Shown piece by piece: positions 1-13,556 of a stretch of 13,556 nucleotides of DNA (positions within the stretch are counted from its first letter, which is position 1; every line of letters begins with the position of its first letter). Origin of the DNA: an uncultured Lachnospiraceae bacterium. Lineage in GTDB: Bacteria; Bacillota; Clostridia; Lachnospirales; Lachnospiraceae. The stretch lies in the NCBI GenBank assembly GCA_945836355.1, contig CAMALD010000009.1:1-13556 (forward strand). The letters run 5' to 3'. A program made the position numbers and the translations under genes. The notes under the pieces are model-generated. The model was not told the DNA's origin and ran no database searches. It saw only the letters and a list, made by a program, of their open reading frames with translations.

Positions 1-165
1 CTTAGCGCCCTGAACTACGTCGAACTCTACAGCCTGACCCTCTTCGAGAGACTTGAAGCCTTCCATGTTCAAACCAGAGTAATGTACGAATACATCATTT
101 CCCTGCTCATCAGAGATGAAACCAAAACCCTTCTGGTTGTTAAACCACTTAACAGTACCCTTCAT
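1..165 (-). CDS. Cold-shock protein, CspA/CspB family (3' end cut by window edge)
   Basis: Small single-domain RNA/ssDNA-binding protein that acts as an RNA chaperone in the cytoplasm. The first 55 residues are visible; the family is about 65-70 residues, so only the last ten or so lie outside. It opens [17 protein letters not shown], with RNP1 (KGFGFI) at residues 12-17 and RNP2 (VFVHY) at 25-29, both with the aromatic residues that stack on nucleic acid bases. The ATG at 163-165 is preceded by a GGAGGA Shine-Dalgarno at about 171-178. It has its own promoter (225-253) and a leader of about 50 nt, shorter than the long thermosensor leader of E. coli cspA, so that mechanism is not evident. 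Family assignment is very secure; which csp paralogue it is cannot be said. Confidence 0.96.
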
Positions 166-224
166 GTGTATTTCCTCCAAAAAAATATAAATTCTGTGCT
201 GTAACTTTCTGCTACAACAACCAT

Positions 225-253
225 ATCATAGCATTTTTCCAATATAATGTCAA
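225..253 (-). promoter_or_regulatory. Sigma-A-type promoter of the cold-shock gene
   Basis: Read on the minus strand: TTGACA (248-253), a 17-nt spacer, then TATGAT (225-230). A TG dinucleotide one base upstream of the -10 gives an extended -10 (TGCTATGAT). The -35 is a perfect consensus and the -10 differs at one position. Transcription should start near 218, leaving a leader of about 53 nt before the ATG at 165. It lies just downstream of the DUF1294 gene, so the cold-shock gene can be expressed independently of the long upstream operon. Confidence 0.88.
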
Positions 254-295
254 ATCATTTTTTTGAGTTTCCGCATTTTATGCATTGATATCCGG

Positions 296-571
296 TTATC
301 GGCATCGGAAAAGTACCGCCGCGGCAAGGATAATCTGAACCAGTAAAATGCACGGCATTCCCCACACAAAATACCAGTGCTTCGTCTTGTGCCGGAACAC
401 CTGCATGCCAAGATTAGAGCCGATGCTGCCGCCAAGCAGCGCAAGCAGGAACAGCACCCGCTCGGGGATACGCCATTCCTTTCGCATTGCACGCCTTTTA
501 TCAATTCCCATGGAGGCAAAGCCCGCCACGTTAATCAGTGCCAGATATACCGCCGGAACTTTCTCAAACAT
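296..571 (-). CDS. DUF1294 small integral membrane protein (YsdA-like)
   Basis: Predicted 91-residue membrane protein of unknown function. Two family signatures are visible: MGIDKRRA at residues 21-28, just after the first hydrophobic segment (about 5-20), and FRHKTKHWYF at 59-68, between the second (about 38-56) and third (about 68-88) hydrophobic segments. The ATG at 569-571 is chosen because it overlaps the aspS stop by 8 nt (ATGTTTGA), pointing to translational coupling, and puts the N-terminus right before TM1 as in relatives. A longer reading frame starts at 640, but its extra 23 residues lie inside aspS and look like shadow sequence. There is no strong Shine-Dalgarno, consistent with coupling. 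It is the last gene of the operon. No biochemical role can be assigned. Confidence 0.9.
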   Translation of the reverse strand: MFEKVPAVYLALINVAGFASMGIDKRRAMRKEWRIPERVLFLLALLGGSIGSNLGMQVFRHKTKHWYFVWGMPCILLVQIILAAAVLFRCR

Positions 572-2378
572 CCCACTTGCCAGAAAGCTCACTATCCGGT
601 ACCGCAAGCTCAATGGATAGCTCCTTAAGCTGCTTTTCATCTACTACATTCGGAGCATCGGTCATCAGGCAGGACGCATCCTTAACCTTCGGAAAAGCGA
701 TGACATCACGGATGGAATCCTCCTTCGCCATGAGCATGACCAGACGGTCAAGCCCATACGCCAGTCCGGCATGAGGCGGAACACCGTACTTGAATGCGTT
801 GAGCAGGAAGCCGAAACGGTCATAAGCCTCCTCCAGAGTGAAGCCCAATGCCTCAAACATCTGCTCCTGCACATGATTCTGGTATATACGAACCGAACCG
901 CCGCCTATCTCGGTACCGTTTAAGACAATATCATATGCCTTTGCACGCACCTTGTCCGGATCGGACGTAAGCATCGGCAGATCCTCCTCCATCGGCATGG
1001 TAAACGGATGATGCATTGCCACATAGCGATGCTCCTCTTCGGAATACTCAAACAGCGGGAACTCGGTTACCCACAGGAAATTGTACTGGTTTTTATCGAG
1101 AATGCCCAGATTTCTGGCAATCTCTAAGCGCAGGTTGCCAAGTACGTCGTAAACCACCTTGTTCTTATCGGCAGCAAACAACAGCAAATCGCCCGGCTTA
1201 CCGTCCATCGCTGCAATCAGTGCCTTTGTCTCATCCTCGGTCAGGAACTTGGTGAAGGAGGATTTTACGGTGCCGTCCGCAGCGATTGCAAGGTATGCAA
1301 GCCCCTTTGCACCAAAGCCCTTTGCGAACTCTACCAGTGCATCAATCTTCTTTCTCGGCATCTCACCCTGTCCGTTTGCATTGATGCCGCGAACCGAGCC
1401 GCCGGCAGCAATCGCACCGGTAAATACAGAGAAACCGCAATCCTTCACGACATCACTGACATTCTTTAACTCCATACCGAAACGGGTATCCGGCTTATCC
1501 GAGCCGTAACGGTCCATCGCTTCCTGCCAGGTCATTCTCTGGATCGGCAGCTTCACCTCAACGTTCAGTACTTCCTTGAACAGCTTCTGCAGCAATCTCT
1601 CATTCACATCAATCACATCGTCCACATCGACAAAGGAGAGCTCCATATCAATCTGGGTAAATTCCGGCTGACGGTCGGCGCGAAGATCCTCATCGCGGAA
1701 GCAGCGTGCAAGCTGGAAATAGCGGTCATAACCGGAGCACATCAGCAGCTGCTTGAAGAGCTGCGGGGACTGCGGAAGCGCATAAAAATTGCCCGGATGC
1801 ACACGGCTTGGCACAAGATAATCTCTTGCTCCCTCCGGTGTGGATTTGCAGAGCATCGGGGTCTCAATCTCCAGAAAGCCTTCGTCTGCAAGGAACTGGC
1901 GTGTCAGCGTTGCTATCTTGCTGCGCATCATCAGATTGCGCTGCAGATCCGGTCTGCGAAGGTCAAGATAACGATACTTTAATCTAAGCTCCTCCTTCGT
2001 CTTGGAATCCTCCTCGATCGGGAACGGCGGCGTCTCTGCCTCCGACAGAATGCGCAGCTGTGTTGCACGGATCTCAATCTGCCCGGTCGCAAGATTGTCA
2101 TTTACTGCACCGGAACGCGCCTCCACGCGGCCTACCACTGCAATTACGAACTCACTGCGGAGCTTGTATGCCTTTTCAAAGCCTTCTGTACCGATATCAT
2201 TCTCCTCAAAGATGATCTGAAGAAGACCGGAGCGGTCTCTCAAATCCACGAAAATGATGCCTCCCTTATTTCTGCTCTTCTGCACCCAGCCCATCACGGT
2301 AACGGTTTCGCCGATATTTGCGGTCGAAAGCTCGGTACAGCGGTGTGTACGGTGCAGGCCCTTCATTGACTCTGCCAT
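564..2378 (-). CDS. aspS: Aspartyl-tRNA synthetase, bacterial type
   Basis: Class II synthetase that charges tRNA-Asp with aspartate in the cytoplasm. At 604 residues it has normal bacterial length. Order of parts: N-terminal OB-fold anticodon-binding domain (about 8-115), catalytic core with motif 1 around FLEIETPMLCKSTPEG (168-183), the QSPQLFKQ element (203-210) and motif 2 from FRDEDLRADRQPEF (227-240); then the bacterial GAD insertion (about 300-420), the NGTEIGGGSVRI stretch (487-498) and motif 3 GLAYGLDRLVMLM (538-550). The ATG at 2378 follows a GTGAGGT ribosome binding site; a second ATG four codons in is less well placed. It begins 20 bp after hisS and its TGA overlaps the DUF1294 start. 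Position 38, in the anticodon loop region that distinguishes tRNA-Asp-specific from Asp/Asn-relaxed enzymes, is Lys, so specificity cannot be read directly. Confidence 0.97.
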   Translation of the reverse strand: MAESMKGLHRTHRCTELSTANIGETVTVMGWVQKSRNKGGIIFVDLRDRSGLLQIIFEENDIGTEGFEKAYKLRSEFVIAVVGRVEARSGAVNDNLATGQIEIRATQLRILSEAETPPFPIEEDSKTKEELRLKYRYLDLRRPDLQRNLMMRSKIATLTRQFLADEGFLEIETPMLCKSTPEGARDYLVPSRVHPGNFYALPQSPQLFKQLLMCSGYDRYFQLARCFRDEDLRADRQPEFTQIDMELSFVDVDDVIDVNERLLQKLFKEVLNVEVKLPIQRMTWQEAMDRYGSDKPDTRFGMELKNVSDVVKDCGFSVFTGAIAAGGSVRGINANGQGEMPRKKIDALVEFAKGFGAKGLAYLAIAADGTVKSSFTKFLTEDETKALIAAMDGKPGDLLLFAADKNKVVYDVLGNLRLEIARNLGILDKNQYNFLWVTEFPLFEYSEEEHRYVAMHHPFTMPMEEDLPMLTSDPDKVRAKAYDIVLNGTEIGGGSVRIYQNHVQEQMFEALGFTLEEAYDRFGFLLNAFKYGVPPHAGLAYGLDRLVMLMAKEDSIRDVIAFPKVKDASCLMTDAPNVVDEKQLKELSIELAVPDSELSGKWDV

Positions 2379-2398
2379 GATGATTACCTCACTTTAAT

Positions 2399-3646
2399 TT
2401 ATTTTGTAAAAAAATCTGCAATCTTGTCCAGCTCTACCTCGGTCTGCTCACCGGTCTCCATGTTTTTGATGAATGCCGCATTCTTTGCAAGCTCATCCGC
2501 ACCCAGGATAACCGTATTCTTTGCGCCGATTTTGTTGGCATATTTCATCTGCGCCTTCACGCTGCGGTCCATATAATCGGTCTCTGTGATGATACCCGCC
2601 GCACGCAGCTTTGTCACCAGACGGTATGCCTCGGTCTTCGCCTCCGCCCCCAGTATGCCGACATAGAGCTCTACCGGCTCTTCCTCCGGCAGCTTAACGC
2701 CTTCCTTGTCGAGGAAATACAGGATACGCTCAATTCCGATACCAAAGCCTACCGACGGGATATCCTGTTTCTCATCGATCTCATGTACCAGCCCGTCGTA
2801 GCGCCCGCCTCCGCAGAGCGTAAAGCCCTCGGAATTGACAAACTCAAATACCGTCTTTGTATAGTAATCCAGACCGCGCACGATGCCGGTGTCAATCTCA
2901 TACGGAATGTTTAATGCCGTCAGAAGTCTCTGCAATTCTTCGAAATGCTCCCTGCACTCGTCATCCAGATATTCGATGGTGCGCGGGGCATCCTTTACGA
3001 TTGCCTTGCATTCCGGCACCTTGCAGTCGATAACGCGCAGAGGATTCTTCTGCATGCGTTCGCGGCAGGTCTCGCACAGGCAATCCTCATGCTTTTTGAG
3101 GTATGCCAGCAATGCTTCATTATATGTCTTGCGGCAATTTTTACAGCCGATGCTGTTGATATGGAGCTTGGCGTCTGTCAGTCCGAGGTCGCGGATAAAG
3201 CCGGTCAGAAGAGTAATCAGCTCAACCTCTGCCAGCGGACTTTTCGAGCCGACAAACTCCACGCCAAACTGATGGTGCTGGCGAAGTCTTCCGCTCTGCG
3301 GCTTCTCATAGCGGAATGCCTGCGTAAAATAAAACAGCTTGGTCGGCTGGCTTTCCGCATACATATTATTTTCCAGATATGCGCGGATTGCACCCGCCGT
3401 ACCCTCCGGCTTTAAGGTCACACTGCGGTCTCCCTTATCGGTAAAGGTGTACATTTCCTTTTGCACAACATCGGTGGTCTCTCCTACGCCGCGCTGGAAC
3501 AGCACCGTATGCTCGAATGCCGGTGTGATGATCTCCTTGATGTTGTAGGCCTTGCAGATAGCTCTTGCCTTAGCCTCGATCACAGTACGTCTGTGCATGT
3601 CCGCACCATACCAGTCCTGCGTTCCTTTTGGTCTTTGTGTAATCAT
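2399..3646 (-). CDS. hisS: Histidyl-tRNA synthetase
   Basis: Class IIa synthetase that charges tRNA-His; 415 residues, typical length. Opening motif RPKGTQDW (5-12), motif 1 region near [19 protein letters not shown] (40-58), motif 2 around [21 protein letters not shown] (107-127, split here for length), the histidine-binding signature [13 protein letters not shown] (257-269) with Arg257 as the likely catalytic arginine, the second histidine signature [10 protein letters not shown] (278-287), motif 3 GFGIGIERI (300-308) and an anticodon-binding domain from about 325. The insertion domain between about 165 and 215 is cysteine-rich (C168, C171, C189, C191, C194, C208, C213), suggesting metal binding. 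The ATG at 3646 has a strong AAGGAGGA site at 3651-3658. It sits 18 bp after the HD-GYP gene and 20 bp before aspS. No T-box leader is present, so regulation probably follows the operon promoter. Confidence 0.97.
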
Positions 3647-3664
3647 ATAATCCTCCTTGTAACC

Positions 3665-4390
3665 CTATGAACTCATTTGGAGCGTCAGCTTCATGCGGTT
3701 GATTTCCTCCCGCAGCTGTTTCTCATCCATTATTACCTCTGTCACGGTTTCATTTTTATTGCGCATCCTTATCTTCTGGTTGGCACATTCCACAAACTGC
3801 CAGATATCATTAATCTCCTCCGAATGCACAACGTTCAAAAACGCCAAAAATATTTTCATGTCAAAATGCTTGACCTCGTCAATCATCATCTCCACCGCCG
3901 CATCGCTGTCAAACGCGCTGCGGTAAGGGCGTTCCGAAATCAAAGCGGCGTATACATCACAGATTCTGAGTATCCGCGAAGCTAACGGAATCTTCTCGCC
4001 CCGCAGATTGTCCGGATATCCCGTACCGTCATAATTTTCGTGATGATGCAGTACCGCCTCCATAACCATATCGGAAAATCCGCCGACCTTCTGCAGCTTT
4101 TCATATCCAAGTGTGGGATGCAGGCGCACATACTTCATCTCCTCGATTTTGAGCACCGCGTCATCCCTTCCGTACAAATACTGTCCGATTTGCAGCTTTC
4201 CAATATCGTGCACAATTCCCGCCGTCATCATTTCGGTACAGAATTTCTCCTCGCAGCCCAGCTCGTACGCCAGCAGCCCCGCAAGATTACTCACCAGCAT
4301 ACCGTGGTCGACCGCATCCAAGAGATCATTTCCTACAGCGCTTTCCGTCTCCAGCACCTGCCACAGTCGTTCATCAATACTCTGAATCAT
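3665..4390 (-). CDS. HD-GYP domain protein, putative cyclic di-GMP phosphodiesterase
   Basis: A 241-residue stand-alone HD-GYP protein without receiver, PAS or membrane segments, so cytoplasmic. The metal-binding pattern is complete: His29, the HD pair in HDIGK (61-65), His91, the HHH run at 115-117, the GYP signature in NYDGTGYPDNLRG (119-131) and Asp145 in ICDVYAAL. Proteins with this signature hydrolyse c-di-GMP or related cyclic dinucleotides; activity here is inferred. The C-terminal 60 or so residues are charged and possibly helical (MDEKQLREEINRMKLTLQ). The ATG at 4390 has an AGAGGA site about 7 nt upstream. It lies 52 bp after hemZ and 18 bp before hisS. Its TAG stop is in the same frame as the hisS ATG, seven codons later, with no other stop between. 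It could also be a sensor that has lost activity, but no key residue is missing. Confidence 0.88.
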   Translation of the reverse strand: MIQSIDERLWQVLETESAVGNDLLDAVDHGMLVSNLAGLLAYELGCEEKFCTEMMTAGIVHDIGKLQIGQYLYGRDDAVLKIEEMKYVRLHPTLGYEKLQKVGGFSDMVMEAVLHHHENYDGTGYPDNLRGEKIPLASRILRICDVYAALISERPYRSAFDSDAAVEMMIDEVKHFDMKIFLAFLNVVHSEEINDIWQFVECANQKIRMRNKNETVTEVIMDEKQLREEINRMKLTLQMSS

Positions 4391-4442
4391 CGTTCTTCCT
4401 CTTGCCCTTTCGCCTTACAATCTGTTCTCCATCTCCGATACC

Positions 4443-5978
4443 TTATCCAATACTCTCAAGGAAATGCTGTTTTCGTTCTATCATTTCATCAATACGTTCG
4501 ATATAATCCTTCAGATTTTTTACGTTTTCAACCCGTTCCAGCTGGTTTTTCTCACGGAATACAAATTTGGAGGTAGCTCCCGCCCCGAGTGCCAGAATAG
4601 TCTGGCGCTCCTCCATAATCAGAATATTATACAGACCCTCCTTGCCAATCCGGGAATATCCGACATTCTCAAGATTCTCTGCCATGTTCTTCTGACGGTA
4701 TAAGTAGTACGGATGGTAGTCATGCGCCGCCGCAAACTCGCAGCTTATGCGCAGCATTTCCTGAACATCCTGTGCTGCCATGCCTTCATATTCCTCTTTC
4801 TTGGTATTCAGACGCGCAGCGCGCTTTACCGCCAGTGTGTGTACCGTCAGATTATCCGGAGAAAGGCGCCCGATGCGCTCCAGTGTCTCAGCCACATCCC
4901 GCGGAGTCTCCTTCGCCAGTCCGAGAATCAAATCCATGTTGATATTCTCAAATCCCAGTTCACGGGCGAGGTAAAACGTCTCTTCAATCTGCTCGACCGT
5001 GTGTTTTCGTCCGATTAAATCCAAGGTTGCCTGTTTCATCGTCTGCGGATTGATGGAAATTCTGTCAACACCATGCGCCCGTATCACCTTCAATTTGTCC
5101 GCCGTTATGCTGTCCGGGCGTCCTGCCTCCACGGTGATTTCCTTAAGCGAGGAGAGATTGAAGTTTTCCTCCACCGCAGACAACAAACGATCCAGCTGGT
5201 CTGCCGACAGCGTTGTCGGGGTGCCGCCCCCGATATATATCGTCTGCAGCTCCTTATCCGTGATAGCTCTGCCCGCGTAGCGAATCTCTTTATGCAGCGC
5301 CGCCAGATAATCCTCCATCCATTTTCCGTACACCCCTACCGGGAATGACGGGAACGAGCAATAATAGCAGGTGCTCGGGCAAAACGGAATGCCGATGTAA
5401 ACACTGTAACCGTTACGGCACTCCATCTCCTCCAGAATGGCATGCTCCCTGCCTGCCACAGTCAGGCTTGTGGAGATTTTCGGGTCGGAGCAGTAGTATT
5501 CCTCCTTCAGAAATCTGCGAATGGTTTCCGGGGCCTCGCCCTCTTCCAGGCGCTCAAGCACCTGCTTGGTCGGGCGGATGCCGGTCATAATGCCCCACGG
5601 CAGGGATATCCCTGTCATTTTCTGCAGAATGACATAAAGCTTGCGCAGCAGGCTGTTCTTGTACTCCCGGCGCTCAGCTTCCGGCGGCACGTCGTGAAAC
5701 TCTGCCACATACAGCTCTTCCCCGTCACGCACCGCGAGATACCCCTCCGTTTTACAGAGCAAAAAGGCATAATCGCACGGCCGCACTGCCTCCTCCGTCC
5801 TGACCTCCGCCAGACCCGGATTCTGTGTCAGATACGCCTTGAACTCTTCCGAGCTCTGTATCTCTTTTCCCTGCCACTCTTCTCTATTTACCTGAAATTC
5901 TGCCCCGGGATAAAAGGATTTGATCAGCGGACGAACATCCTGCTCAAAATCCTCTCCCCACATTTTCATAGTAATCAT
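4443..5978 (-). CDS. hemZ: HemZ-like radical SAM protein (oxygen-independent coproporphyrinogen III oxidase family)
   Basis: A 511-residue radical SAM enzyme. Residues 1 to about 185 form the long N-terminal extension typical of HemZ and absent from HemN/HemW. The core begins YIGIPFCPSTCYYCSFPSF with the CX3CX2C cluster cysteines at C200, C204 and C207, followed by IYIGGGTPT (247-255) for SAM binding and INMDLILGL (346-354). The tail YYLYRQKNMAENLENVGYS (424-442) is the family's conserved C-terminal signature. HemZ proteins are annotated as anaerobic coproporphyrinogen dehydrogenases; many gut Clostridia carry one without a visible heme pathway, so the physiological substrate is uncertain. 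The ATG at 5978 overlaps the upstream stop as TAATG, indicating coupling; an AGAGGG site lies 12 nt upstream, slightly far, so ATGs at codons 4 and 6 are alternatives. Confidence 0.93.
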   Translation of the reverse strand: MITMKMWGEDFEQDVRPLIKSFYPGAEFQVNREEWQGKEIQSSEEFKAYLTQNPGLAEVRTEEAVRPCDYAFLLCKTEGYLAVRDGEELYVAEFHDVPPEAERREYKNSLLRKLYVILQKMTGISLPWGIMTGIRPTKQVLERLEEGEAPETIRRFLKEEYYCSDPKISTSLTVAGREHAILEEMECRNGYSVYIGIPFCPSTCYYCSFPSFPVGVYGKWMEDYLAALHKEIRYAGRAITDKELQTIYIGGGTPTTLSADQLDRLLSAVEENFNLSSLKEITVEAGRPDSITADKLKVIRAHGVDRISINPQTMKQATLDLIGRKHTVEQIEETFYLARELGFENINMDLILGLAKETPRDVAETLERIGRLSPDNLTVHTLAVKRAARLNTKKEEYEGMAAQDVQEMLRISCEFAAAHDYHPYYLYRQKNMAENLENVGYSRIGKEGLYNILIMEERQTILALGAGATSKFVFREKNQLERVENVKNLKDYIERIDEMIERKQHFLESIG

Positions 5979-6619
5979 TAATATAAATATCCCTCTTCGT
6001 TGATATATGGATTGTTGTCAATCTCGTAACCAATCGTGGTCGGCACTCCGTGCCCCGGATAAACCTTCGTCTCTCCCGGCAGGACAAACAATCTCTCTTT
6101 GATTGATCTGACCAGCTCAGCAGCATTGCCGGTCGGCAGATCCGTGCGTCCTACAGACTCAAAAAACAGTGTGTCGCCCGAAAACAGGCATCCCTCCTGC
6201 TCAAAATAGAAGCAGGCGCCTCCCTTCGTGTGACCCGGTGTGGCAATCACCCTGCAGCAGAGTGCCCCGAAGGAGAGCACCTCGCCATCGCGGAAGGTCT
6301 CATCCGGCGTCACCGTCTGGCGGAAGCGGAACATCCTTCCCGCGTTCAGATTGTCATCCTCCGCGAGCTCTTTCTCCGCGTCTAGGCAGTATACCTTTGC
6401 CCGGAAATCTGCGCGCAGCCTGTCCGCCGCCAATATATGATCAAAATGTCCATGTGTCAGCAAAATTGCCCTTAACTGCAGCTCATTGCTGTGCAGATAA
6501 CCGGCAATCTGCTCCGCACCCGCACCCGGGTCAATGACCAGCGCATCCTTCGTCTGTTCATCCGATACGATAAAGCAGTTTGTCATCACTGCGCCAACGA
6601 CCATTTTCTGAATTATCAT
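5978..6619 (-). CDS. Metallo-beta-lactamase-fold hydrolase, glyoxalase II-like
   Basis: Predicted cytoplasmic metallohydrolase of 213 residues. The zinc-binding motif THGHFDH is at 55-61 (His56, His58, Asp60, His61), with His130 in TPGHTKGG, Asp149 in FSGDTLF and His190 in YPGHGVPT, so both metal sites are complete. The fold and length match the small YqgX/glyoxalase II-like group; lacking the longer C-terminal substrate domain of classic glyoxalase II, the substrate cannot be stated (thioesters such as S-lactoylglutathione are the family type, but these bacteria often lack glutathione). The ATG overlaps the rel stop by 4 nt (ATGA) with an AAAGGA site 8 nt upstream, and its TAA overlaps the hemZ ATG. 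It is thus tightly coupled on both sides. Confidence 0.93.
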   Translation of the reverse strand: MIIQKMVVGAVMTNCFIVSDEQTKDALVIDPGAGAEQIAGYLHSNELQLRAILLTHGHFDHILAADRLRADFRAKVYCLDAEKELAEDDNLNAGRMFRFRQTVTPDETFRDGEVLSFGALCCRVIATPGHTKGGACFYFEQEGCLFSGDTLFFESVGRTDLPTGNAAELVRSIKERLFVLPGETKVYPGHGVPTTIGYEIDNNPYINEEGYLY

Positions 6620-8085
6620 CCTGTTGTCCTTTCTACATCCAGCACGCTCTCAATACTGCGCAGCTTGGAAATCAGCACGGTAAGCTGCTCTTTCCCGTTG
6701 ATTGAAAAACCGACACTGATTGTCGCGGTGCCCTGCTTGCTCGTGCGCACCGTCATTGAGCTGACATCAATATTATTTTCGGTAAAAATGCGGGAAACAT
6801 CCAGCAATACACCGTTGCGGTTATAGGAGTAAATCTTGAGCTCCGCATTGTAAAGCTCACCGTCCCCTTTCTCGCCGGTTACACTCCACTCCGCATCAAT
6901 CAGGCGTGCCCGCTCTTCCTCTGAGAGATTGAGCACATTGATACAGTCGGTGCGGTGAATGGATACCCCGCGGCCTCTGGTGACAAAGCCAACAATCTCA
7001 TCCCCCGGTACCGGCGAACAGCATTTTGAGAAATGCACAGCCACATCGTGAATGCCCTGTACCACAATGCCGCCCTTCGCCTTAATCTGTGCAGGGTGTT
7101 CACTTCTGATGTCGGAAAGGGTTTCCAATACCTTTTCATCCGTCATCTCCTTGCGGTGTTTCTTCTCATATTCCTCCTGCAGTTTATTGACAATCTGCCC
7201 TTCCTTTAAACCGCCGTGACCGATTGCTGCATAAATGGAATCCCAATCACGGAAACCATATTTGCGCAGGCAGGCCTCCATAAACTCCGGCTTGAGCAAA
7301 TCGCTCAGCACGATGCTTTTTGTCTTGCAATAAGCGGACATCAGCTCCTTGCCCCTCTGGATATTGTCCTCCTTCAGCTCGGTCTTAAACCACTGGTTAA
7401 TCTTGTTTTTTGCCTGCGTACTCTTGACAATATTCAGCCAGTCACGGCTGGGACCTCTGGAATTCTGTGAAGTGATGACTTCGATGCGGTCACCGTTCTG
7501 GATGACATAATCAAAGGTAACCAGCTTACCGTTTACTCTTGCTCCCACCATCTTGTTTCCGACCGCGCTGTGAATGCTATATGCAAAATCCAGCGGCGTG
7601 GAACCGGCAGGAAGGTTCTTGACATCCCCCGTCGGCGTAAAGCAGTACACACTGTCCGAAAACAGATCAAGATCGTTCTTTAACAGACTTAAGAACTCTC
7701 GATTATCCGACATATCCTTCTGCCACTCAAGAATCTGACGCAGCCAGGAAAGCTTCTCCTCCTCGGTGGTTTCCGGGGTCTTACCGTTCTGGGCCTCCTT
7801 GTATTTCCAGTGCGCAGCAATACCGTATTCTGCGGTACGATGCATCTCATAGGTGCGTATCTGTATTTCAAACGGCTGTCCCTTCGGCCCGATCAGTGTT
7901 GTATGCAGCGACTGGTACATGTTCGCCTTCGGCATTGCGATATAATCCTTAAACCTGCCCGGAATCGGCTTATACATCTCGTGAATCACACCGAGCGCCG
8001 CATAGCAGTCCTTTACCGTATCCACAATAATACGGATTGCAAAAATATCATATATCTGATCCAGTGTTTTATGCTGATTGACCAT
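6616..8085 (-). CDS. Rel C-terminal fragment: synthetase core, TGS, conserved-cysteine region and ACT
   Basis: Open frame downstream of the TAG, shown from its first ATG (8083-8085); 489 residues. Parts visible: synthetase core with RFKDYIAMPKANMYQSLHTT (44-63) and catalytic-Glu segment FEIQIRTYEMHRTAEYG (72-88), where Glu73 is the expected catalytic residue; TGS domain VYCFTPTGDVKNLPAGSTP (146-164); CCSPVPGDEIVGFVTRG (355-371) with HRTDC (377-381); and an ACT domain from about 408. The RFKD form is that of bifunctional Rel rather than RelA. The 36 codons between the TAG and this ATG encode the N-terminal part of the synthetase domain, including GRVKHFFSIYRK, the ATP-contacting motif. A protein restarted here would lack it, and no Shine-Dalgarno is seen before the ATG. 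Translation of this piece alone is doubtful and it would probably not synthesise ppGpp. Confidence 0.55.
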   Translation of the reverse strand: MVNQHKTLDQIYDIFAIRIIVDTVKDCYAALGVIHEMYKPIPGRFKDYIAMPKANMYQSLHTTLIGPKGQPFEIQIRTYEMHRTAEYGIAAHWKYKEAQNGKTPETTEEEKLSWLRQILEWQKDMSDNREFLSLLKNDLDLFSDSVYCFTPTGDVKNLPAGSTPLDFAYSIHSAVGNKMVGARVNGKLVTFDYVIQNGDRIEVITSQNSRGPSRDWLNIVKSTQAKNKINQWFKTELKEDNIQRGKELMSAYCKTKSIVLSDLLKPEFMEACLRKYGFRDWDSIYAAIGHGGLKEGQIVNKLQEEYEKKHRKEMTDEKVLETLSDIRSEHPAQIKAKGGIVVQGIHDVAVHFSKCCSPVPGDEIVGFVTRGRGVSIHRTDCINVLNLSEEERARLIDAEWSVTGEKGDGELYNAELKIYSYNRNGVLLDVSRIFTENNIDVSSMTVRTSKQGTATISVGFSINGKEQLTVLISKLRSIESVLDVERTTG

Positions 8086-8193
8086 CTTGCGATAAATACT
8101 GAAAAAGTGCTTTACACGCCCGTCAATCTTCGCCTCGATCGAAGCCTCACGGAGCTGGCTGCTGACCTCCGCGATGATATCGGCAATAAAAGC

Positions 8194-8196
8194 CTA
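8194..8196 (-). other. In-frame amber (TAG) codon interrupting rel
   Basis: The plus strand reads cta at these positions, giving TAG on the coding strand in the context GAGCGT-TAG-GCTTTT. Reading on in the same frame gives AFIADIIAEVSSQLREASIE and then the ATP-binding GRVKHFFSIYRKM of the synthetase domain, so sense coding resumes immediately. TAG is also the ordinary stop of apt, the HD-GYP gene, the SGNH gene and the MBOAT gene in this window, which argues against TAG being a general sense codon here. Confidence 0.95.
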
Positions 8197-8877
8197 ACGC
8201 TCTTCCTTTTTGGACTTCAGCTTCTCCTCCAGATCCTTATAGACAGCAGGCTCTAAATATTTTAACGAGAGATCGTCGAGCTCAATCTTGATTTTGGAAA
8301 TACCGAGTCTTTGTGCAATCGGTGCATAGATATCCATCGTCTCGCGGGATTTTTCAATCTGCTTTTCCGGAGACTGGTACTGCATGGTACGCATATTGTG
8401 CAGGCGGTCTGCCAGTTTAATCAGAATGACCCGGATATCCTTTGCCATGGCAAGGAACATCTTGCGCAGGTTCTCCGCCTGAATCTCTACCTTATCCTTC
8501 GAATAATTTAACTGCGTCAGCTTGGTAACACCATCTACCAGCAGTGCTACCTCTTCACCGAATTGTGCCTTCAGCTCATCCACCGTCAGCACGGTATCTT
8601 CCACCACATCATGCAAAATACCTGCCACAATGGATTCCTTGTCAAGCTCCAGCTCAGCAAGGATGATTGCCACACAGATTGGATGAATGATGTACGGCTC
8701 ACCTGATTTGCGCTTTTGTCCCTTGTGTGCCTCATAGGCAACATGATACGCTTTATCAATGACCGACAGATCCGTGGATGGATGATAATTTCGAATAGTT
8801 CGAATCAGTATGTCATACAGCTCTTCAACATCCGTAAAATCCTTCGGAATCAGGAAACTCTTCTTTTCTCCGTCCAT
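8194..8877 (-). CDS. Rel N-terminal fragment: (p)ppGpp hydrolase (HD) domain alone
   Basis: The 227-residue product expected if the TAG terminates translation. It holds the complete ppGpp 3'-pyrophosphohydrolase domain: Arg56 in HKGQKRKSGEPY, His65 in IIHPI, the HD pair (89-90) and EDT (93-95) in ILHDVVEDT, and Asp157 with Asn161 in LADRLHNMRT. It ends KSKKEER, in the helical linker just before the synthetase domain, so the piece could fold by itself as a hydrolase with no synthetic counterpart and no C-terminal regulatory region. It starts 23 bp after apt with a good Shine-Dalgarno (GGAGGT). What is seen is the open frame and residues; stability and activity of the fragment are inferred. Confidence 0.75.
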   Translation of the reverse strand: MDGEKKSFLIPKDFTDVEELYDILIRTIRNYHPSTDLSVIDKAYHVAYEAHKGQKRKSGEPYIIHPICVAIILAELELDKESIVAGILHDVVEDTVLTVDELKAQFGEEVALLVDGVTKLTQLNYSKDKVEIQAENLRKMFLAMAKDIRVILIKLADRLHNMRTMQYQSPEKQIEKSRETMDIYAPIAQRLGISKIKIELDDLSLKYLEPAVYKDLEEKLKSKKEER

Positions 8878-8900
8878 ATCCTACCTCCAAAGCACAATCA

Positions 8901-9425
8901 CTATTTGCCCTCATAACAGATTACCGAAGATATATCGTAATCTGCCAGACGTTTTCTGCCTTCAAGGCCTGCCAGTTCCATCAAAAATACAATCTTTACC
9001 ACCTTGCCGCCCAGGCGCTCAATCAATTTAATCATCGCCTCGGTGGTGCCGCCGGTCGCAATCAGATCATCAATGATTACGACTCTCTGTCCCGGCTGAA
9101 TGGCATCTTTATGAATCTCGATTGTCGCCGTGCCATACTCAAGAGCATACTCCTCCCCGATGGTCTCGCAGGGAAGCTTGCCCTTCTTGCGAATCGGCAC
9201 AAACGGCTTATTCAGGTTATATGCGATCGGTACACCGAAAATGAACCCCCTGGACTCCGGGCCTGCTACCACATCAAATTCCACATTCTTTAAGCACTCC
9301 TGCATGCGGTCAATGGCAAGGTGCAGCCCCTGTGCATCCTGCAGAACGCTGGTAACATCACGAAAAATAATACCCTTTTCCGGGAAATCCGGTATACTTC
9401 TGACATAATCCTTAAGTTCTTTCAT
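8901..9425 (-). CDS. apt: Adenine phosphoribosyltransferase
   Basis: Converts adenine plus PRPP to AMP in purine salvage; cytoplasmic, 174 residues, typical length. The start MKELKDYVRSIPDFPEKGI is the classic N-terminus, with FRDVTSVLQD (21-30), DVVAGPESRGFIFG (51-64), the flexible-loop region EYALEYGTA (92-100) and the PRPP-binding signature VVIIDDLIATGGTT (115-128). The ATG at 9423-9425 is chosen over an in-frame ATG at 9455 because an AAAGGTGG site sits 8 nt upstream of it and because family members start here. It is the first gene of the eight-gene operon, just behind a strong promoter, and 23 bp before rel. The pairing of apt with rel is common in Firmicutes and links purine salvage with (p)ppGpp metabolism. 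It ends in TAG. Confidence 0.97.
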   Translation of the reverse strand: MKELKDYVRSIPDFPEKGIIFRDVTSVLQDAQGLHLAIDRMQECLKNVEFDVVAGPESRGFIFGVPIAYNLNKPFVPIRKKGKLPCETIGEEYALEYGTATIEIHKDAIQPGQRVVIIDDLIATGGTTEAMIKLIERLGGKVVKIVFLMELAGLEGRKRLADYDISSVICYEGK

Positions 9426-9433
9426 AAAAATGG

Positions 9434-9441
9434 CCACCTTT
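9434..9441 (-). promoter_or_regulatory. Ribosome binding site that fixes the apt start
   Basis: AAAGGTGG on the minus strand, 8 nt before the ATG at 9425. It decides the start in favour of the 174-residue protein over the 10-residue longer reading from 9455, which would overlap the predicted transcript leader. Confidence 0.8.
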
Positions 9442-9475
9442 CTTATTATGCTCATTCGTTCTTTCGCATTCTATC

Positions 9476-9503
9476 ATTATAGCACGCTTTTTCCAAATAG
9501 CAA
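9476..9503 (-). promoter_or_regulatory. Promoter of the apt-rel-...-aspS operon
   Basis: Minus strand: TTGCTA (9498-9503, four of six to consensus), a 16-nt spacer, then a perfect TATAAT (9476-9481) with a TG one base upstream (TGCTATAAT, extended -10). Transcription should begin near 9469, leaving a leader of about 44 nt before the apt ATG. No operator, T-box or riboswitch fold is evident in so short a leader. No further promoter of this quality was seen within the operon. Confidence 0.8.
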
Positions 9504-9561
9504 AGTTTTTTCGTCGAAACACCGTTTTGCAGCATGAGCAGCCGATTAACGCTGCCGCAGA

Positions 9562-11502
9562 TTATCCCTTCACATACCTTTTCATGACCGCCGTAATGCC
9601 GTTTTTCTGCAAAAGCTTCAGCATTTCACTGCGCTCCTTCGGCAGGATGACCGTATTGCGGTACTGGTACTTCAGCACCGTATCGTAGTCCGTCCTCTCA
9701 CAGGCTGCAAACCCGGAAATGCCTGCCAGCACACGTCTCCCCTTATCCGTACTGATGACAATCATCGATTTATTTTTCCAATCCTTCGGAAGCTCGCCCT
9801 GACTGGTCTGCCGCAGCTCGCCCAGAGTAAGGTCGCCGACGCGCTTTCTCTCATTGTAGGAACAGTTCGCACAGGCTTCATTTGTCAGGCATTGCTGCTC
9901 AAGCAGTTGTATGTACGAATTGTTCTCGTATGTCTGGCGCACCTGCTTTCCATTTTCATATTCTACGGTGAGCACCCTGCTCTTCGTCATGGAAGCTGCC
10001 GGATATTTGCCGAAGCTAATGCTCTTAACCGGCGATTTTGCCCTGCGTTCGAGCGCGCGCACATAAGAATCAAACGCCCTTTCCGATACCGCGTAATGGC
10101 ACATAAACTCACAAACAAACAGCTTGGCATACTTACGTTTCAAAAAAGCCCTCAGCGCGGCGCACTCGCACGGAATGCCTGCAAACATGACAAACTGCCC
10201 CTGCTCCAGAAGTTCCTTGATTTGCCTGTAACAGTCCTGCGTATGGCTCATTAAACAGCGCTGCTGTGCAAAATCCCCGGCACGCTCCCAGTCCCCGGTA
10301 CTGATAATCACCGGCTTGTGTTCTTCATTTAATACCGTCCCGAATATGATTCCCTCTTTCTGCGTCACCACATAGCGCGCAATCTCACGGAACAAACCGC
10401 TGTATGCCGTATACATGCCCTTCTCGTCAGGAGCCTCCCCCACATAGATTTCCGGGAAGGACGGGTCATCATATTTTACAAGCTGCCGCTTTTTCTTTTT
10501 TATGCAGCGGTCGGCACACCAGCCGCAATCATTGCACAGCGCATTGTCAACCACGGGATAGTAAAAGCCCTTTACATCCATTTCCATGTGAATGGCGCGC
10601 TCCGGACAGCTCGCCTCGCAGGCACCGCATGCACAGCATTGGCTGAACGGCAGCTTGACCGGGCATTTTACGGCGACCTCCGTGTCACCCAGCTCCATGT
10701 GTTCTTCCATCTGCACAAACATCCGCTTTCGCATTCTTCCGATGACCTTGCGGAATTCCGCAAGGTCATCCTGCTGCCTCATCTGCTCATAATCAGGCAG
10801 ACCGCTCTTATATATTCTGCCCTCCAGACCCAACCTTTGCAGGATGTCCTCCGTCCGGCTCTCCTCGTCCCCATCCGCTGCCGGAAGCATCGCAAATGCC
10901 TTCTCATGCAGCGCGGACATCACACTGCCCACATAGCTGTCCGTGACTACCGCGTCTGCCTTCCAGATATAGCCGATATATTCGCCCGTGTCAAAGCTCC
11001 CCCTGCATTTTACTTCAAGCTCACCGATTTCCTCCGGCACCGTAGCTGTCCCGTTAATTACAAGCACACATCCCGCTTCACCGGCAATCTTTTTCACCGC
11101 GTCCGCTTTTTTCGTGTTCCACTCTTTGATATCGACAAACAGATAACGCTCCTGCAAATCCGGTTTGACCGAAATCGCATGGTAACGCACCTGCTGCACC
11201 AGTATCAGTGCGTCCGGGATATACAATACATTCTCGTTCCCGTACGCCTGTGCCGCCTCCTTATCGCTTGTCATCCATGCGCTGATCTGCTGATATATTC
11301 CGTAGCTCCGCAGCATTTCCCGATCGGCGGTGCACAATGTGAAACGGTCCAGAATAAAGTCCGATACTTTGCCCGTCGTTTCAGGATATTGCAGCACCAC
11401 TGACATGACTCCGCGTTCCCGCAGGGCCCGCTTCATTGCCCAAAGCTGTATTTCTTCCAGTATTCCGCTATGCTTTGCATCCGCAATCAATCCGACTATC
11501 AC
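9562..11502 (-). CDS. Fusion: divergent polysaccharide pyruvyl transferase-like domain, 2[4Fe-4S] ferredoxin, FrhB-like domain
   Basis: A 646-residue cytoplasmic three-part protein. Residues 1 to about 265 resemble the polysaccharide pyruvyl transferase family: MIVGLIADAKHSGILEEIQL at the start, ISAWMTSDKEAAQAYG (73-88) and IWKADAVVTDSYVGSV (179-194) near the end. The middle part with the usual GSDxxW motif is missing, and the SxHG histidine is replaced (SYVG). A dicluster ferredoxin follows: C289, C292, C295, C299 and C323, C326, C329, C333. From about 362 comes a coenzyme F420 hydrogenase/dehydrogenase beta-subunit (FrhB) type domain with AYSGLFREIARYVV, FAGIPCECAALRAFL (440-454) and CANCSYNERKRVGDLTLGE (544-562); this family binds flavin. 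The start is GTG at 11500-11502 with GGGAGGG just upstream; no ATG is in frame nearby. It is 24 bp after the SGNH gene. The FrhB relatives found in capsule/exopolysaccharide loci have no settled function, so substrate and reaction are unknown. Confidence 0.85.
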   Translation of the reverse strand: MIVGLIADAKHSGILEEIQLWAMKRALRERGVMSVVLQYPETTGKVSDFILDRFTLCTADREMLRSYGIYQQISAWMTSDKEAAQAYGNENVLYIPDALILVQQVRYHAISVKPDLQERYLFVDIKEWNTKKADAVKKIAGEAGCVLVINGTATVPEEIGELEVKCRGSFDTGEYIGYIWKADAVVTDSYVGSVMSALHEKAFAMLPAADGDEESRTEDILQRLGLEGRIYKSGLPDYEQMRQQDDLAEFRKVIGRMRKRMFVQMEEHMELGDTEVAVKCPVKLPFSQCCACGACEASCPERAIHMEMDVKGFYYPVVDNALCNDCGWCADRCIKKKKRQLVKYDDPSFPEIYVGEAPDEKGMYTAYSGLFREIARYVVTQKEGIIFGTVLNEEHKPVIISTGDWERAGDFAQQRCLMSHTQDCYRQIKELLEQGQFVMFAGIPCECAALRAFLKRKYAKLFVCEFMCHYAVSERAFDSYVRALERRAKSPVKSISFGKYPAASMTKSRVLTVEYENGKQVRQTYENNSYIQLLEQQCLTNEACANCSYNERKRVGDLTLGELRQTSQGELPKDWKNKSMIVISTDKGRRVLAGISGFAACERTDYDTVLKYQYRNTVILPKERSEMLKLLQKNGITAVMKRYVKG

Positions 11503-11526
11503 ATTACCCTCCCTTTCCGCAACGAC

Positions 11527-12579
11527 CTATTTGTCTGCGGTCAGATATTCATCCACAAATTCATAGTATGCATCCGCTCTCTCGTCCCAGGACTGATATT
11601 CACTCTCACCGCGATGATCACAAAGACCGTATTCCTCAATCAAATGCTTTGCGTACAATAAGGTAAACTTATACGCACCGTTGACATTGGTATGATCCGA
11701 GTCCTGAAAATCCACCTCTTCCTCAAATCCGAAGGTCTTATAAAGCTCCTCCTCATTATAATTGATAAACGAAAAACCGTATTCACGTATAATCTCTCCG
11801 ACATAATTCATCATGGAAAGCCGGCTTTTTCCGAGCAGCACCGGCACTGCAACAAATTCCACCTGAGCCTCCTGTGTTTTGCACCACTCCAGGAGCTCGC
11901 GCAATGCTGCCTCATGCTGCTCGCTGATTGGTGTGCTCGTTGTTGTCGTCTTGTGCGTGTTGGTCGAAGTCACCCTGCCCGACAGATAATTCGGCAGATA
12001 ACCGCAATTCAGATACGGACTGTACTGGTCGGTAAAGCTCTTCTCATCCAGTTCCTTCCACTGGGAGTGGAACTGCATAATCGGAAAATAATACTCCAGA
12101 CGCTCCATCCCCTTCACTCCGATAAAATCACAATGACTCCGGATAGCATCCAGATAATTCATGGAAAATTTCATATTCTTTAACAGCAGATGCACCTTCT
12201 TGTTGGTAGGGTCTACTTCGTCGCGCGCAAACATTGTGATGTCAAATACAATCACCTTCGGGCTCTGCGTTTTGCATGCCTCGATTGCCGCATTCCTGAC
12301 CACGGACGCAGGCATATCGGATACAGAAAAATTCAGGCTGCTGATGCCGTATTCCCTGTATGCAAATGCAGCCTGCCAATAGTTGTGAACATGGCTGTTG
12401 CCGATAAACACTGCATCCACCGTATTTTCCGGCTCCTCATAATACGAATTGATCATTCTCTCCGCCTGATTTGCCACCTGCGTGGTAATTCCGAAAAGCC
12501 CCTGTACGCGCACAAACATCGCACACACGATTACCACAAAGACTACTGCTCTTACTGCTTTCATTATCTTCTCTCTCAT
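11527..12579 (-). CDS. Membrane-anchored SGNH/GDSL-like protein (AlgJ/AlgX/DltD-type partner of MBOAT)
   Basis: Predicted 350-residue protein with an N-terminal membrane anchor (residues about 11-25, after the basic MREKIMKAVR) and the rest outside the cell. The catalytic block is visible: VFIGNSHVHNYW with nucleophile Ser62 (residues about 57-68), LNFSVSDMPA, and a C-terminal FQDSDHTNVNG with the Asp/His pair (Asp293 or Asp295, His296). This is the layout of SGNH acyl-transfer proteins that work with an MBOAT to O-acetylate exported glycans or lipids. The ATG at 12579 is chosen for its TGAGG site 6 nt upstream. An upstream in-frame TTG at 12639 gives 20 unconvincing extra residues. It lies 86 bp after the MBOAT gene and 24 bp before the redox fusion. 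It ends in TAG. The acceptor polymer is unknown. Confidence 0.86.
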   Translation of the reverse strand: MREKIMKAVRAVVFVVIVCAMFVRVQGLFGITTQVANQAERMINSYYEEPENTVDAVFIGNSHVHNYWQAAFAYREYGISSLNFSVSDMPASVVRNAAIEACKTQSPKVIVFDITMFARDEVDPTNKKVHLLLKNMKFSMNYLDAIRSHCDFIGVKGMERLEYYFPIMQFHSQWKELDEKSFTDQYSPYLNCGYLPNYLSGRVTSTNTHKTTTTSTPISEQHEAALRELLEWCKTQEAQVEFVAVPVLLGKSRLSMMNYVGEIIREYGFSFINYNEEELYKTFGFEEEVDFQDSDHTNVNGAYKFTLLYAKHLIEEYGLCDHRGESEYQSWDERADAYYEFVDEYLTADK

Positions 12580-12585
12580 TACAAG

Positions 12586-12590
12586 CCTCA
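12586..12590 (-). promoter_or_regulatory. Ribosome binding site that fixes the SGNH gene start
   Basis: TGAGG on the minus strand, 6 nt before the ATG at 12579. The ATG at 12591 overlaps this site and has no purine-rich stretch before it, and the in-frame TTG at 12639 is poorly placed. Confidence 0.65.
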
Positions 12591-12665
12591 TTTCAAAACA
12601 ATCTATCGGGAAAATGCTGACATCACCCGTGTTTTCCAAATATCACTGACACAATCAGGTTTCTG

Positions 12666-13556
12666 CTAGAACCCGCCATAAAGGAATGCTCCGGTATCAT
12701 AAGCCGGACCGTACATGCCAAATACCAGCAGCAACAGAATCGCTCCGAGATAAATGATCCATCGAAACAGCAGCGGCTGTTTTGCCAGCATTTCACGAAT
12801 GCGGAGCTTCTGGTGAAGCATGTCCGCCGTCCACATCAGGGCCAGTCCGAACAGTACCACATAAAAATCCTTGCGGTCCAGACCATGCTTGAAAATACTT
12901 TCATCAAACAGAACCCACAGCCGATGCCCTGCAAACAGCTGCTTTACCATAACAGCAAAGCCTGCAAGTGATCCGGTCACGGTCAGCATTCTTCCGATGC
13001 AGAACAGGAAAAAGGTACGCACCATCTGAAACAGCCGAACGCTAAAGATAGAAGGATCCAGCTTCAGCGCCGCATTCCATTTCTTAAAATTCGGAGCCAA
13101 TACCGTGCCCAGAATAATCAGCACGCCCCAGTAACAGCCCCACACAATATAATCAGCACCCGTACCGTGCCACAAACCGGTCAAGAGCCACACGACTGTC
13201 AGCGGTATCGCCGCAGAAATAATCTGTCCGGCACGGTTTCCGTGCTTTTTGCGGAAATTGCCTGAAAATTTCATAAAGCGCGGGCTCATCGCAATCGGCA
13301 TATACACATAGTCCTTAAACCAGGTGCCCAGTGTAATGTGCCATCTGCGCCAGAATTCCGCTGCGCTCTTCGAAAAAAACGGCTCCTTAAAGTTTTCCTC
13401 CAGCGTAATTCCCATCACCTCGGACGCACCGATTACGATATCCATACATCCCGAAAAATCCGCATACAGCTCAAATACCCCAAGCACTACTGCAAAAAAA
13501 ATCTCGACACCGGCAAAATCCGCAGGCGCAGCATATACCGAAGAGGTATACAGGGC
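12666..13556 (-). CDS. MBOAT-family membrane O-acyltransferase (5' end beyond window)
   Basis: C-terminal 296 residues of an AlgI/DltB-type integral membrane acyltransferase; the frame stays open to the window edge, so the start lies beyond 13556 (a GTG at 13487 is internal). Family signatures are clear: FELYADFSGCMDIVIGAS, then EFWRRWHITLGTWFKDYVYM with a conserved His, and LLTGLWHGTGADYIVWG with the invariant active-site histidine (codon at about 13167-13169). Several hydrophobic segments follow, ending in IIYLGAILLLLVFGMYG. Whole family members are about 450-520 residues, so roughly a third is missing. MBOATs of this branch move an acyl group, usually acetyl, across the membrane onto a surface polymer through an SGNH partner, which is the next gene. 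It ends in TAG. Acceptor and acyl donor are not determined by the sequence. Confidence 0.93.
   Translation of the reverse strand, partial: ALYTSSVYAAPADFAGVEIFFAVVLGVFELYADFSGCMDIVIGASEVMGITLEENFKEPFFSKSAAEFWRRWHITLGTWFKDYVYMPIAMSPRFMKFSGNFRKKHGNRAGQIISAAIPLTVVWLLTGLWHGTGADYIVWGCYWGVLIILGTVLAPNFKKWNAALKLDPSIFSVRLFQMVRTFFLFCIGRMLTVTGSLAGFAVMVKQLFAGHRLWVLFDESIFKHGLDRKDFYVVLFGLALMWTADMLHQKLRIREMLAKQPLLFRWIIYLGAILLLLVFGMYGPAYDTGAFLYGGF

Follow-up and report, generated by a model that had tools for sequence, protein, structure and literature searches.

Introduction

The closest described counterparts of the locus analysed here are the long bifunctional Rel proteins of Firmicutes (RelSeq and those of B. 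subtilis and S. aureus). In RelSeq the hydrolase domain spans residues 1-159, a three-helix bundle residues 135-195 and the synthetase domain residues 176-372, and roles have been described for R44, H53, H77, D78 and D144 as well as for R241, K243, H244, S247 and K251 (PMC13299517). A construct comprising residues 1-224 of RelSeq serves in the laboratory as a hydrolase-only protein (PMC9143738). For S. aureus it has been reported that Rel is essential, its hydrolase being needed because of RelP and RelQ, and that a Rel which has lost the C-terminal domain and retains the synthetase domain still complements (PMC6053245). An architecture with an HD domain only is found in the small alarmone hydrolases (MESH1, RelH and SAH).

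Neither a nonsense mutation in rel nor a sequence error is new to science; premature stops in rel have already been published. For instance, the rel gene of Leptospira biflexa Patoc 1 Paris contains a premature stop (PMC3153485), and for a nonsense mutation in S. aureus rel the corresponding table entry gives high ppGpp (PMC10117726). Here we describe an interrupted rel gene of an uncultured Lachnospiraceae bacterium, an organism for which our literature search found no paper on rel. The window, that is the whole stretch of 13,556 nt that was analysed, comprises positions 1-13,556 of the forward strand of contig CAMALD010000009.1 of assembly GCA_945836355.1. The source is a metagenome draft genome that is 68% complete and totals 1,715,691 bases in 310 contigs, the longest of which has 23,812 bases.

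Layout of the rel locus

The gene is an otherwise ordinary bifunctional rel of the Lachnospiraceae type that is split by one TAG (Table 1). Its start codon is the ATG at 8877. The HD_4 domain (PF13328, 5.5e-53) lies in the 5' part, whereas the RelA_SpoT, TGS, RelA_AH_RIS and ACT domains (PF04607, PF02824, PF19296 and PF13291) all lie in the 3' part, which opens with AFIADIIAEV. The two parts cover the family model TIGR00691 consecutively (positions 1-184 and 190-686) and align with residues 16-214 and 216-375 of RelSeq (1vj7), respectively. Since both match consecutive stretches of one family, the TAG takes up one residue position, RelSeq 215. The original prediction, that a single in-frame amber codon interrupts the only rel gene in the window, is thus borne out on both points; another gene with a RelA_SpoT domain sits elsewhere in the draft, on contig C78.

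A comparison with the bifunctional Rel proteins of Firmicutes reveals the same domains in the same order across both parts, the difference being the in-frame TAG where RelSeq has residue 215. In terms of what characterizes a long bifunctional RSH protein, the HD domain and the metal and substrate residues are present, and so in the DNA are the synthetase, TGS, RIS and ACT domains, but the reading frame is not a single uninterrupted one, as it breaks at the TAG. The genomic context is equally ordinary. On the minus strand the domain matches give the order FrhB-type protein, apt, rel, metallo-beta-lactamase-fold protein, radical SAM protein, HD-domain protein, hisS and aspS, where the names hemZ, apt, hisS and aspS are presumed ones that we assigned from the domains. 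The gene adjoins apt as it does in five loci of the same genus (L004-L008), in which the order apt, rel, metallo-beta-lactamase-fold gene, hemZ is identical to that in the window; a chimeric contig is therefore not indicated.

Table 1. Features of the interrupted rel locus and of related loci elsewhere in the draft genome
Feature	Location	Position	Strand	Basis or remark
apt, phosphoribosyltransferase gene	window		minus	domain match
Likely rel ribosome binding site, GGAGG, six bases ahead of the ATG	window	8884..8888	minus	read from the sequence
rel 5' part, 227 codons: HD (ppGpp hydrolase) domain and helices leading to the synthetase domain	window	8197..8877	minus	PF13328, RelSeq alignment
GGAAGAGCGT, ten bases immediately ahead of the TAG	window	8197..8206	minus	identical to ten Illumina TruSeq adapter bases
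In-frame TAG (amber), equivalent of RelSeq residue 215	window	8194..8196	minus	sequence and RelSeq mapping
rel 3' part, 525 open codons (6619-8193) and TAA: SYN-TGS-AH/RIS-ACT domains	window	6616..8193	minus	Pfam
GRVKHFFSIYRK, motif with the equivalents of RelSeq R241, K243, H244, S247 and K251	window	8086..8121	minus	RelSeq offset (residue 1 of the 3' part = RelSeq 216)
First ATG/GTG/TTG past the stop, codon 37 of the 3' part	window	8083..8085	minus	sequence
SGNH-like hydrolase gene (L166), 5' part missing	contig C41	5240-6272	minus	directly behind an apparent queA
In-frame TAG near the end of the SGNH-like gene	contig C41	5370-5372	minus	codon-usage scan
Small-synthetase-type gene (L002), 345 residues	contig C78	988-2025	minus	RelA_SpoT domain

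Comparison with related loci

The codon at the stop was compared with that of 109 further loci: 29 belong to relatives, and 80 are the best among 536 found in genome contigs. L011 and L091 look like one genome counted twice. In all 109 the aligned codon is a sense codon in frame, encoding E (73 loci), Q (23), D (7), K (2) or N, I, R or F (one each). None of them carries a stop there, so that the stop of the window is unique in the set and, judged from the aligned sequences, more than a matter of chance. Among the protein-database matches listed, the closest relative of the 3' part is at most 90% identical, the window's own 3' part is absent, and a match of 100% to the 5' part comes only from the window's own entry. 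Neither a second sequence with the same stop nor another copy at the species level was present among these matches and, because the best relatives are at most 90% identical, an independent copy of the species is lacking for comparison.

Among the 150 family matches listed, a frame of about 228 codons occurs only in the window, one of 527 codons in genome G303 and frames of at least 721 codons in the remaining 148; at the cut-off, 9 of 299 genomes have no family match. The long-Rel frames of the relatives have at least 735 codons, except in G023 (612), G042 (581 and 204, on two contigs), G006 (343, partial) and G035 (a weak match alone). The 527-codon Rel frame (G303:C5:32497) comes from a genome of the same family and may represent a truncation or a contig end.

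These comparisons bear on the idea that the halves are separate genes, one for a hydrolase and one for a separately started synthetase-regulatory protein, a reading that we regard as extremely improbable. It can draw on P0020, a database protein that has the SYN-to-ACT part alone and begins beside the stop site, and whose start may be genuine or result from a contig edge or a frame break. This protein has 529 residues; the other 119 of the 120 matches listed for the 3' part have at least 737. However, the halves are fused in all 109 loci, and 148 of the 150 family matches listed have the long frames given above. In addition, translation could restart at the earliest beyond the ATP-binding motif GRVKHFFSIYRK, where the first start codon past the stop is located, so that a restart there would give no synthetase, and inspection by eye found no visible Shine-Dalgarno-like sequence ahead of it. 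On the ground of the position of this start codon, a split gene with a real restart in the window was rejected.

Predicted product of the 5' part

The residues R56, H65, H89, D90 and D157 of the 5' part align with R44, H53, H77, D78 and D144 of RelSeq and are invariant among 40 proteins. An AlphaFold2 model of this part (mean pLDDT 86.6, pTM 0.85) has as its best Foldseek matches the Rel catalytic domains from T. thermophilus and B. subtilis; small alarmone hydrolases rank further down. Considering the domain limits of RelSeq, the 1-224 construct, the conserved residues and the model, the 227-residue fragment would probably fold and hydrolyse ppGpp. Like the construct, it consists of the hydrolase domain and the central helices and has no synthetase; unlike the construct, the truncation is natural and ten residues shorter, and the activity is a predicted one.

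If the stop is real, the HD-only architecture is that of MESH1, RelH and SAH, although these give the lower-scoring fold matches and the fragment corresponds by sequence to the N terminus of a long Rel and not to those families. The frame yields an HD-only protein, but the base may be wrong and the sequence is that of a long Rel. The truncation would remove the synthetase and ribosome-sensing portion and leave the hydrolase intact, a point that was absent from the original prediction.

Other interrupted genes and the use of TAG

The draft was scanned for other interrupted genes on basis of codon usage. A first pass over 21 stretches (301,274 bases) yielded 28 same-frame junctions of coding-like segments, of which that in rel alone had no start codon within 21 codons. 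A second pass over 61 stretches, covering 650,585 of the 1,715,691 bases, yielded 63 junctions, nine of them without such a start; the junctions with an early start we took for ordinary gene starts. Inspection by eye of the eight junctions outside rel gave one interrupted gene (the SGNH-like gene L166), five short weak segments, what looks like a VanW-type gene followed by a histidine kinase and one gene end with a 41-codon tail. The filter detects about 0.21 of random nonsense changes and the scan therefore gives a lower bound. When the draft was compared by tblastn with 400,000 bases of G003, a genome of the same genus, 33 query frames out of 622 and 32 out of 1,015 had a match, too little overlap to be useful. 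In-frame stops numbered 17 and 11, nearly all in apparent spurious frames of the reverse strand and two at a gene junction.

The SGNH-like gene has an intact relative in G002 (67% identical, 402-codon frame). Six of nine fetched loci align over its TAG, all with one and the same residue, although two of the six are the same place. The state of this gene looks like decay and does not suggest recoding.

The original prediction had also considered that the codon is read through. By a suppressor tRNA, recoding or leaky termination the cell would then produce the hydrolase fragment for the most part, along with a little full-length Rel, which we deem very unlikely. It is true that the site is variable among the 109 loci, so that almost any inserted residue would be acceptable, that the 3' part is conserved and that the second interrupted gene in the sample likewise has a TAG. 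Nevertheless, TAG is an ordinary terminator in this genome: among 390 coding-like frames of at least 150 codons (61 stretches, 650,585 bases) 190 end in TAA, 102 in TAG and 98 in TGA, and among 352 frames of that minimal length, antisense ones included, the numbers are 175 for TAA, 105 for TGA and 72 for TAG. Release factor 1 is present (542.7 bits, cut-off 423). PylS exceeds its cut-off in none of 21 genomes, the organism's own included; weak matches occur in 16 of the 21, and among the control genomes 13 of 14 match, one of them over the cut-off. None of the 10 tRNA genes found has the anticodon CUA, a count to be read against a full set that is several times larger and mostly missing from this incomplete draft, so that a suppressor tRNA may be among the missing genes. 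The SGNH-like gene with the second TAG lacks its 5' end, and its TAG aligns with a residue that is never seen at the rel site, so that a single fixed reassignment misfits both. Stop usage, release factor 1, PylS and the tRNA genes thus give no support to readthrough or to a reassignment of TAG, as far as the sampled stretches and the incomplete draft reach.

Recent mutation or sequence error

We tentatively favour one recent nonsense substitution in an ordinary bifunctional rel, present in the sequenced strain or population, although we give it somewhat less than an even chance. Translation would then begin at 8877 and be terminated by release factor 1 at the TAG. The resulting 227-residue protein would retain the complete HD hydrolase domain together with the central helices and be devoid of the synthetase, TGS, RIS and ACT domains. 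The cell would have no ribosome-triggered ppGpp synthesis by Rel, and the truncated Rel may still degrade ppGpp from a small synthetase, provided that the base is real, the fragment stable and active and the small synthetase active. A nonsense allele is consistent with a single stop in a frame that is otherwise intact and in normal gene order, with the role of TAG as a normal terminator where release factor 1 is present, with an end at RelSeq 214, near that of the 1-224 construct, and with a predicted fold that matches the HD domains of Rel. In addition, the SGNH-like gene as a second stop-interrupted gene shows that real gene decay occurs in this genome. Against it stand the fragmentary draft, the lack of a second sequence with the stop, the resemblance of the neighbouring bases to a sequencing adapter and the state of the 3' part.

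The latter shows no trace of relaxed constraint, since its number of private residues in 521 gap-free columns (5) is within the range of the same-genus loci L004-L008 (3, 9, 3, 5 and 27). In 217 columns of the 5' part the window has none and these loci have 1, 0, 0, 0 and 2. A 3' part free of decay implies that the change is either very recent or not real; as synonymous distances are near saturation, the private residues indicate only that the stop is not long-standing.

About equally likely is an error of consensus or assembly at the TAG, or a rare variant picked by accident, in an organism that has an intact bifunctional Rel. The constraint on the 3' part, which is as in the sister sequences, and the completeness and fragmentation of the draft agree with this. 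More specifically, GGAAGAGCGT matches ten bases of the TruSeq adapter. P0122, which is 87% identical to the 5' part and derives from a 1,460-base contig, tracks Rel exactly as far as the stop site and closes with DRKSVV, a translation of the TruSeq adapter. P0020, which belongs to the same group of relatives and comes from a contig of 2,890 bases, starts three residues ahead of the stop site. Together these two suggest that the sequences of the group tend to break at the stop site; 120 related N-part proteins end at places scattered over reference positions 230-419, with no pile-up at that site. On the other hand, the base that follows the shared ten differs in the adapter, so that adapter sequence alone does not yield the TAG. 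In a further 637,029 bases of the draft, ten-base matches to three adapters total 91 (34, 35 and 22); one match is therefore not rare, and the position of GGAAGAGCGT was spotted post hoc. Furthermore, just two interrupted genes were found in the codon-usage scan, at the detection rate given above. The adapter match of GGAAGAGCGT and the adapter artefact of P0122 at this point made us lower our initial estimate for the allele, which stood at even, by a little and raise that for the error by as much.

The database protein P0144 is a Rel fragment that ends in CLLYTSPSPRD, the translation of a Nextera adapter. In two further database proteins, P0223 and P0224, the Rel HD domain is joined to a 147-residue tail, which may be a fusion or the result of a chimeric contig; the tail of P0223 gave no Pfam match.

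Small-synthetase-type gene and possible tolerance of the stop

The genome contains one gene of the small-synthetase type, that on contig C78. Its product scores 119.3 bits with PF04607 (cut-off 27) and 187.7 bits with the YjbM-like model NF053588, which is under the cut-off of 320; about 130 more residues come after the RelA_SpoT part, making the protein longer than the 201-position YjbM model. With such a gene present, losing the ppGpp synthesis by rel need not mean a ppGpp-free cell, a further point that was absent from the original prediction. Moreover, a stop behind the HD domain may be tolerable, because S. aureus needs the Rel hydrolase against the ppGpp of small synthetases and a Rel that lacks the C-terminal domain still fulfils this role (PMC6053245), a function that such a stop spares. 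In other genomes, weak small-synthetase-like matches with internal stops were seen at G027:C38:35052-35483 (two TAG) and G047:C1:29318-29815 (one TAA).

A further possibility is that Rel is naturally hydrolase-only in this lineage. The stop would then have shed the ribosome-coupled synthetase, and the ppGpp level would be set by a small synthetase versus a free-standing Rel hydrolase. We consider this unlikely.

Implications

Of the three explanations offered by the original prediction, a nonsense mutation and a base error both stand, whereas readthrough is not supported. The parallel that it drew with relA1 is a loose one: relA1 is an IS insertion and not a nonsense mutation. In the printed cases of L. 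biflexa and S. aureus, as here, a nonsense codon lies in a long rel; in the window the hydrolase domain is complete.

If the stop is real and kept, the organism would provide a natural test of whether a Clostridium of the gut or rumen type manages without ppGpp made by Rel, a test in which the hydrolase stays and is made necessary by the small synthetase. If it is an error, the locus illustrates how stretches resembling adapters, and thin coverage, can mimic lost regulation in draft genomes from metagenomes. Either way, the biology is inside the known range for rel.
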